In this document: positions 4,111 through 12,490 of the stretch, piece by piece
Layout of the letters: each line of letters starts with the position of its first letter
Numbering within the stretch: the first letter of the stretch is position 1
The notes under the pieces: generated by a model
The model's input: the letters and a program-made list of their open reading frames with translations, nothing else
What the model was told of the DNA's origin: nothing
Databases searched by the model: none
Made by a program: the position numbers and the translations under genes
From: Verrucomicrobiaceae bacterium
GTDB lineage: Bacteria > Verrucomicrobiota > Verrucomicrobiia > Verrucomicrobiales > Verrucomicrobiaceae
NCBI GenBank assembly: GCA_947507875.1
Contig: CANNQP010000004.1
Span: 1 to 64,000 of the forward strand
Length of the DNA: 64,000 nt
Direction: 5' to 3'

Positions 4111-5391
4111 CTACTCTAGAAATTCCTCCATCTCAGGAATGCGCGTGAAAGCGATTTTGGTCCCCGAGAAGGCTTTAACTTCATCCGGCAGAAATCCGAG
4201 AGCGACGCTATCACGACCGAAGTGCTGATTCAGATGATCCATCACGCGCGATAGGCGATGCTGGCGCGCCATTTTCTCTTCAGAGATAAGGCGAAAGTTA
4301 CAAAAAAGCTCCATCTGCTTGGGCTGATGCACGCTCTCCAAACCATAAAGTGTGACTGATAGCTTTTTAATCCGAGCCCAGCGCACTTGGCCTAACACGA
4401 TGGGCCACAGCTCAAACAACGCATGCATAAGGGTGTATGTATCTTGCGTTGGCCAAGGCAACCTCATGGCAGCTGCCCCCTGAGCTTTCTCCTCGGTCTT
4501 GACGGAAAGACTAAGCTCGCTGGCATTCCAGTCTTGCCGACGCAAGCGACTGGCCGCTTTGGAAAGCAACCGACGCGCAACAACGGCAGCCTCGGGAGGA
4601 CACCGAAACTCAGGGGATAAAACATGGCTATGCCCCATACTGCGCGATTGTTGCGGAAACGCCCCTAAGTCATGACCATGCAACTCTTGCCAAAAGCGAT
4701 CCCCCCCTACCCCACCCCAAACCGCATGGAGTTCTGCGGGTGTCGCATGCCATAGATCCTGCACCGTCAAAATCCCCGCAGCATGCAATCGGGGCTCCAT
4801 CCGACGACCTATTCCAAACAGGTCCGTCAGATCCCACCCCATCAGGGCATCGGGTAGATCAGCGATGTGCAACACCGTGAGTCCATCAGGCTTTTTCAGA
4901 TCACTGGCAATTTTCGCTAAATAGCGGTTAGGGGCTATACCCATCGAGCAGGTGATGCATTCTCCGAGTCTTTGACGCAATCCCCTTTTGATTTGTCGAG
5001 CTAAGTCCAACGCAGACGCTTCACTTTGACGTGGCGGGTCCAGAAGCAAGCCCATTTCATCAATCGAGGCGACCACTTCAATCGGATAATAGCATTCAAT
5101 CACCCTTTTGATCTGCTCATGAAATTCGACATACTTGGAGTGGTCGGCTTGCACCAAGATCAACTCAGGACATCTTTGGCGTGCTTCGCCGATATTGGTT
5201 CCTGTCTTGATGCCAAAGCCTTTGGCCTGATGGCTAGCTGCAATCGCACAAGTGCTATCCGAGATCACAGGAACCACCGCCACGGGTTTACCCCTCAAAC
5301 GAGGGTTCAGCTGCTGCTCGACGCTAGCGAAGTAGCTGTTTAGATCCAAAAATAACCATCGAAGGGGTGATGATGAACACGATTGCTTCAT
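4111..5391 (-). CDS. Y-family DNA polymerase (DinB/Pol IV-like)
   Basis: This is a translesion DNA polymerase of 426 residues. The palm begins with RWLFLDLNSYFASVEQQ (metal-binding Asp and steric-gate Tyr region). VVASIDEMGLLLD holds the Asp-Glu pair of the active site, and CSMGIAPNRYLAKIASDLKKPDG is the fingers/palm signature. A helix-hairpin-helix region (DLFGIGRRMEPRL) and a little-finger domain follow. Because the catalytic acids are present it should be active, unlike ImuB, which normally lacks them. No imuA or dnaE2 is adjacent. I do not see a clear clamp-binding motif at the C-terminus. A palindrome matching a LexA box lies 28 bases upstream of the ATG at 5391, so SOS control is likely. 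Confidence 0.88.
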   Translation of the reverse strand: MKQSCSSSPLRWLFLDLNSYFASVEQQLNPRLRGKPVAVVPVISDSTCAIAASHQAKGFGIKTGTNIGEARQRCPELILVQADHSKYVEFHEQIKRVIECYYPIEVVASIDEMGLLLDPPRQSEASALDLARQIKRGLRQRLGECITCSMGIAPNRYLAKIASDLKKPDGLTVLHIADLPDALMGWDLTDLFGIGRRMEPRLHAAGILTVQDLWHATPAELHAVWGGVGGDRFWQELHGHDLGAFPQQSRSMGHSHVLSPEFRCPPEAAVVARRLLSKAASRLRRQDWNASELSLSVKTEEKAQGAAAMRLPWPTQDTYTLMHALFELWPIVLGQVRWARIKKLSVTLYGLESVHQPKQMELFCNFRLISEEKMARQHRLSRVMDHLNQHFGRDSVALGFLPDEVKAFSGTKIAFTRIPEMEEFLE

Positions 5392-5418
5392 GTCATCTAA
5401 ATTAGCAGCATTGAAATG

Positions 5419-5432
5419 AGTTCAAATGAACA
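5419..5432 (-). promoter_or_regulatory. Candidate LexA (SOS) box upstream of the Y-family polymerase
   Basis: On the minus strand the site reads TGTTCATTTGAACT. It matches the TGTTC-N4-GAACA LexA motif reported for Verrucomicrobia at 9 of 10 fixed positions. It sits 28-41 bases before the start codon of an error-prone polymerase, where a repressor would block transcription. A TTGAAA element just upstream (about 5434-5439) could be a -35 box, but no good -10 box is seen. Confidence 0.65.
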
Positions 5433-11082: not shown

Positions 11083-12490
11083 TCATGGAACAATCGGCAA
11101 GAAGTTCACTTGGCCAGACAGCTTTGGAGTATCACGCGTGGTGGTTGCTGGCGTGTTGCCAGATGCTGGCTGAGGTAAGGTGTCCACAATGAAGTATCCC
11201 GTTCCAAAAATCTTAACTGTGTCATTTGGTAGGCGTGCGTGAATGATCAAACCTTGGAAAGGCGTGTTACGCGTCACAGGATTCGGACGCTGTCCCGCAA
11301 CCGGATTAGGATCAGACAAAACAAAACTGCCACTGAAGGCACCCGTCGTCGGCACCGCTGAAAGCGTTGTTCCGGCTGGATTTTCCACTGGAGCAGTCAG
11401 CTTCTTTCTTGGAATTGTAATCCGACTAGCAATGCCCACGCTTACGATGACGTTCGGATTGGTAGCAGTAGCAATGCCCGTCGAACCGTCCAATGTGAAT
11501 TCAAGCTCAGCATTATTTGTTCCTGGATTAAGTCCAAGCACTACCGTTCCAGTGCGCGGAGGTGGATTGTACATACCACCGAGAACCGCATAAGCCACAG
11601 GAGCTGTTACTGTCGCCGCAGGCACCCCTGTCAGAACCTGTGTTGTGCCAAATCCTGAACGGTAAAGACGAGCTGTAGTAATGGTCGCAGGATTTGGCGG
11701 ACGCACCACGGAAACAGTTCCTATCACATTGTTCGATGTAACAGGAGAACGGGCTACAATCTGAAGAGGTTCAACCTGCGCTGTAGCGGGATTATCACTG
11801 AGGATCGAGCCCTTGGTCGATGTCGTGTAAAGCGCCTGGAACATAAAGATTTGACCATCAGGCCCCATGAAGGAGCTTCCCGTCAAGGTTTCACCATCTG
11901 GTGTCCGGCCGCTAACAGTGTAGCCTCCTGAGGTTAAAACACGAATCGCAGCATAACCATCTCCTTGAGGAACCGCAGTCAAACCGATCAACCCACTGCC
12001 ATCTGGCAATGTGAAAGCTACATTGTAAAGCCCCACATAAGCATCTGGTTTAGCTGACACGTTTGCTCGTGCGGTTGCAGCCCAATTGTTACGCCATGCA
12101 GCATATGCCACCGTGTTGGTGCCATCCGTAATTTCGGCTCCTGAGATCAAAACTGCAGGTGGAGCGTCTGTCACGCTTGGAGGAGTGATAGCTAAACTAA
12201 ATTTTATCGTCGCAGCGGCTTCTGTTCGCGTAGCGGCGGCAATTGCCAATCCAGAAGGTGGCGCCAAAAGAACGGCATTGGGATAAACCGAGGCTTGATC
12301 CACATTCATGATCAAATCCCCCTTAAATGTTCGAGCAGCCCCTGAGCCCAGAACGATGCGCCCCGAGTAAGCTCCAAGAGCAGTCGTAGTCATCTCAAAA
12401 CGCCCACCCAAATGACCATTCAATACGGCATGACGGGCGATCGGACCGGCATAACTGCCAGCCACACCCGCTGGAATTGGGAAGACCGTC
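11083..12490 (-). other. C-terminal domain of the giant protein (G-rich beta repeats, no barrel)
   Basis: The last ~470 residues follow the Ig-like cluster and contain a repeated theme: SYAGPIAR...[11 protein letters not shown]...TFKGDL, then [19 protein letters not shown], then [11 protein letters not shown]...[12 protein letters not shown]. It ends [11 protein letters not shown] without the C-terminal Phe/Trp of outer-membrane barrels and without a sorting helix. The pattern recurs, to my knowledge, in other exported verrucomicrobial proteins but has no known function. Confidence 0.5.

Follow-up and report, generated by a model that had tools for sequence, protein, structure and literature searches.

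The 64-kb window, which is the whole stretch of DNA analyzed here, carries on its minus strand a gene for a UmuC-like Y-family DNA polymerase preceded by a predicted LexA operator (Table 1). Positions 5419–5432 read AGTTCAAATGAACA on the plus strand and TGTTCATTTGAACT on the minus strand (5432..5419). The pattern scored was TGTTC-N4-GAACA, a 14-bp palindrome with 10 fixed positions, reportedly the Verrucomicrobia LexA motif of Erill et al. from 2016 (Front Mol Biosci 3:33). An earlier note on this DNA had claimed a match at nine of the ten positions and a placement 28 bases before the start codon. Both figures are exact: the A of the ATG at 5391 lies 28 positions from the last base of the box, with 27 intervening bases. 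The note had also taken the motif as support for a verrucomicrobial origin, and the nearest named relatives are indeed Prosthecobacter, Brevifollis, and other Verrucomicrobiaceae. Elsewhere in the window, positions 11083–35733 of the minus strand form a single ORF of 8,216 aa that is rich in autotransporter-like repeats.

Table 1 Features of the polymerase gene and its upstream region.
Feature	Position	Strand	Evidence
Predicted LexA box, TGTTC-ATTT-GAACT	5419..5432	-	9/10 fixed positions of TGTTC-N4-GAACA; conservation
TTGAAC, inferred -35 within the right half of the box	5420..5425	-	Invariant in 33/33 promoters
AATTTA, inferred -10, 16-bp spacing	5398..5403	-	Box-anchored footprint
TAATTT, alternative -10, 15-bp spacing	5399..5404	-	
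UmuC-like Y-family DNA polymerase, 426 aa	4111..5391	-	PF00817 (3e-36), PF11799 (2e-12), IMS_HHH_1
Catalytic Asp16	5344..5346	-	51/51 in family alignment; lines up with the catalytic Asp in Y-family polymerases of solved structure
Catalytic Asp111-Glu112 (SIDE motif)	5056..5061	-	51/51; aligned with the SIDE of Dbh
QMELF beta-clamp binding motif (QxxLF type), residues 359–363	4303..4317	-	Q and F in 43/51 homologues
DUF4113/RecA-NT-like motif in the C-terminal tail, residues 379–399	4195..4257	-	DUF4113, E 1.5e-4

The polymerase has IMS, IMS_HHH_1, and IMS_C domains, with the palm/finger, thumb, and little-finger parts of a Y-family enzyme all present. Its three catalytic residues are invariant in the family alignment, in keeping with the earlier description of a catalytically intact Y-family polymerase, and by its sequence it is an active UmuC-like enzyme. 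The active site starts with D-x-N, which we take to be UmuC-like. In NCBIfam, the highest-scoring models carry the name DNA polymerase IV, and all of them fall under the cut-off. The QMELF motif follows the QxxLF clamp consensus given in PMC12926913. The C-terminal tail matches DUF4113 with 22.1 bits, just below the curated cut-off of 24, and its residues D385, G392, and G399 are invariant in all 51 homologues. PMC6511836 describes the DUF4113 motif as homologous to the RecA N-terminus, and tails of this type are linked to RecA binding in PMC6511836 and PMC12926913. Compared pairwise, the tail and the N-terminus of the RecA from the same genome did not score above shuffled sequences (52 of 500 reached the score). 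This pairwise match was dropped and the DUF4113 profile match alone retained; contact with RecA therefore stays a prediction.

The genome encodes one S24 protein, a LexA with both the LexA DNA-binding and the S24 domains, so that the regulator, whose absence the earlier note had named as a refutation, is present together with an autoregulatory box. Exact TGTTC-N4-GAACA sites occur only twice in approximately 4.45 Mb: one is 8 nt upstream of the inferred lexA start codon (ATG), the other 22 nt upstream of the recA ATG. A 9/10 box, AGTTCAAAAGAACA, lies 50 nt upstream of uvrA and has the same outer-base variant (AGTTC...GAACA) as the polymerase site. A bare 9/10 match, by itself, proves nothing, because sites with at most one mismatch number 67 genome-wide against 44 for a reversed-pattern control; sites with at most two mismatches in the window number 33, against 34.8 in shuffles. 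Counts of 9/10 sites, whether in the window or in the genome, are thus near background and were dropped as proof. Inspection covered approximately 53 of the 67 sites with at most one mismatch. At other genes, most fall inside coding sequence or ahead of genes unrelated to the SOS response, among them one for a ribosomal L25-like protein and one for a lipoprotein, and they are probably chance matches. Two 9/10 boxes lie 24 bp apart at C29:10939 and 10977 (G000:C29:10939-10990, L169), downstream of a queE-like radical SAM gene, and no SOS-like gene was recognized near this pair.

When the window was scored with LexA matrices, as the earlier note had proposed, the polymerase site ranked second in the 64 kb with a matrix built from independent LexA sites and first with a matrix from the polymerase boxes of relatives. 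The note had also named, as a result that would count against it, an equal frequency of the site at random genes. This is nearly true of single 9/10 matches, and the evidence then given was thin; the support comes from conservation. The polymerase box stands above chance by its position and conservation, not by the match alone.

From 68 genomes of the family, 52 loci of this polymerase type were taken; a box of at least 9/10 stands just upstream of the polymerase in 49 of them and is exact (10/10) in 34. The remaining three are L210, with an 8/10 site; L195, an apparent loss; and L170, which has 27% identity and is probably a different paralogue. Elsewhere in these 52 loci, only 3 further sites of at least 9/10 occur in 226 kb (0.002 per 150 bp). 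A second set, which overlaps in organisms with the same-family set, comprises 16 named verrucomicrobial loci for which the upstream sequence is complete (L019–L034, 59–68% identity); 15 of them have a 9–10/10 box upstream. The distance from box to start codon is mostly 26–35 nt in the close group and 10–14 nt in the distant group. Bases flanking the box are little conserved, and the DNA of the same-family loci is otherwise diverged. No box precedes L025, a close orthologue whose row in the tree lies nearest to the window polymerase, and LexA control is therefore not indispensable. In one lineage (L025 and L195), SOS control appears to have been lost.

A footprint of 33 non-redundant promoters anchored on the box was used to examine promoter structure. 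The invariant TTGAAC (33/33) takes in two T's of the spacer, for which the symmetry of a LexA site gives no need. Outside the box, the conserved columns are chiefly an A at +30 (26/33) and a T at +34 (22/33), together with an A-rich stretch just before the box and a T-rich stretch just after it. TATAAT-likeness at spacings of 15–19 bp totals 107, compared with a maximum of 101 in 500 shuffles. Read together, these columns suggest a -35 element (TTGAAC) and a -10 element (NANNNT) at 16-bp spacing. The -10 of the window itself, AATTTA or TAATTT, is poor; at 16-bp spacing it has the conserved A and lacks the T. Where 27 nt separate the box from the gene, the start codon lies approximately 6 nt past the -10, so the transcripts may have no leader or a very short one.

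Beyond the phylum, 61 homologues (L036–L098) were examined. They are proteobacterial by title and almost all alphaproteobacterial, except for one Chlamydiae record. An exact GTTC-N7-GTTC lies within 160 bp upstream in 44 of them, while the permuted control CTTG-N7-CTTG occurs in 0/61 and the verrucomicrobial-type box in 1/61. This direct repeat is the alphaproteobacterial LexA motif (PMC8565304, PMC3323433). Two phyla therefore appear to keep the polymerase clade under LexA, each with its own type of operator. The tree places the close verrucomicrobial group together in a single supported set, separate from the alphaproteobacterial rows.

The window polymerase is the single IMS match in the genome, and the only DnaE is a protein of 1214 aa. 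No ImuB, DnaE2, UmuD, or second Y-family polymerase was found in the 93%-complete assembly; one Y-family gene, one DnaE, and one S24 protein thus leave no imuB-dnaE2 and no umuD, within that completeness. An SRAP partner, suggested for UmuC-like polymerases in PMC12926913, was not found in the genome either, and a crude start-motif scan of the homologue loci gave nothing convincing. The earlier statement that the usual imuA-imuB-dnaE2 cassette is missing holds for this assembly, but the cassette does occur in the lineage: ImuB and DnaE2 are present in approximately 25 of 68 family genomes, and their absence here is therefore specific to the lineage or the assembly.

Approximately 23 of the 68 family genomes encode a fusion protein of approximately 1,400–1,490 aa in which a Y-family polymerase that retains SIDE is joined to a DnaE-type Pol III alpha with PHP, PDIDIDF, finger, HHH, and OB elements. 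At all eight loci examined, the fusion gene adjoins, within a few nt, an upstream gene for a UmuD-like S24 protein (approximately 150 aa) that lacks the DNA-binding domain of LexA. No LexA box lies directly before the fusion genes of these relatives; an exact TGTTC-N4-GAACA box is placed one gene further upstream, before the UmuD-like gene, in 8/8 loci. In the family genomes (G001–G067), ImuB-DnaE2 and the fusion occur together in 3 genomes, ImuB-DnaE2 alone in 22, the fusion alone in 20, and neither in 23; the genome of the window has neither. The two thus rarely co-occur (Fisher p 0.004, uncorrected for kinship). The searched passages of two polymerase surveys (PMC6511836, PMC12926913) do not mention such a fusion, which is possibly an undescribed one-chain, two-polymerase mutasome.

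The locus resembles known systems in several respects. It shares with the Verrucomicrobia LexA regulon the motif, the exact sites at lexA and recA, and the two-domain LexA, and differs in the one outer mismatch of the polymerase site. Like the imuA-imuB-dnaE2 cassette of other family members, it appears to be a LexA-controlled SOS translesion function; ImuB is catalytically inactive, whereas the window polymerase keeps its catalytic residues. A predicted LexA-controlled UmuC-type polymerase with a D-x-N start of the active site, a clamp motif, and a putative DUF4113-like tail recalls UmuC/Pol V, but no UmuD partner accompanies it, the sole S24 protein found being LexA, and the box is different. 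The putative PolY-RecA complexes of the Meiothermus silvanus type, as described in PMC12926913, likewise combine an active PolY and a RecA-NT-like motif with the lack of DnaE2 and a small subunit; in the present case, RecA binding is predicted and the DUF4113 match is just under the curated cut-off. The LexA box before the polymerase is a new example of the known SOS response and not a new kind of system.

Two other readings of the box itself can be considered. If the 9/10 match had arisen by chance, the polymerase would be constitutive and the palindrome without function, as the modest excess of such sites over the control (approximately 1.5-fold) and their frequent location inside genes might suggest. 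The recurrence of the box at the same place in nearly all same-family loci, amid flanking bases of little conservation, and the separate LexA motif of the alphaproteobacterial homologues bring this reading close to refuted, and we regard it as highly improbable. The conserved element could instead be mainly a promoter, with TTGAAC as the -35 and a palindrome that serves another regulator or none. TTGAAC exceeds the left half of the box in conservation and is matched by a -10 hexamer at 16 bp. However, the left half, TGTTC, is conserved as well (G 33/33, T 32/33, T 33/33, C 31/33), and in the distant group the palindrome persists, in most cases lacking the spacer TT. The palindrome is also exact at lexA and recA and precedes the UmuD-like operons of every relative examined, a distribution that fits LexA better than a mere promoter. 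We regard this second reading as very unlikely.

An operator for LexA, as comparative evidence predicts, would still allow the polymerase to act in the manner of Pol IV, alone and outside any RecA-dependent mutasome. The lack of UmuD, SRAP, or another small subunit in the genome, the polymerase IV names of the sub-threshold NCBIfam matches, and the non-significant comparison with RecA all point this way, while the conserved DUF4113-type tail, with its reported ties to RecA binding, points to a mutasome. We consider independent action unlikely, though by no means negligible.

We propose that positions 5419–5432 are a LexA operator, a prediction made with high confidence from the comparative evidence, and that SOS induction of the polymerase is its expected consequence, in agreement with the damage-induced mutagenesis that the earlier note had predicted. 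The single LexA of the genome would bind the box as dimers, cover the -35 in its right half, and thereby block RNA polymerase at the promoter. Upon DNA damage, RecA filaments would trigger LexA self-cleavage, and the UmuC-like polymerase would be made from a transcript that perhaps starts close to the ATG. The enzyme would be loaded through its QMELF motif, probably contact RecA via the RecA-NT-like tail, and carry out error-prone translesion synthesis without UmuD, ImuB, or DnaE2. LexA-repressed, damage-induced translesion synthesis through this site, probably as a PolY-RecA complex, is in our judgment very likely. A broader proposal is possible but rather doubtful: the polymerase may be the sole SOS mutagenesis enzyme of the cell, a minimal mutasome of the UmuC type that needs no UmuD and is switched directly by RecA, from a clade kept under LexA by a palindrome in Verrucomicrobia and a direct repeat in Alphaproteobacteria, its SOS membership outliving the operator.

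The exchange of the LexA operator with the target gene kept in two phyla would clearly illustrate how a regulon can be conserved while its operators turn over. For Prosthecobacter-type bacteria, the data suggest a minimal SOS set of lexA, recA, uvrA, and one UmuC-like polymerase. This set would provide a test case for damage-induced mutations made by a UmuC-type polymerase with RecA and without UmuD.
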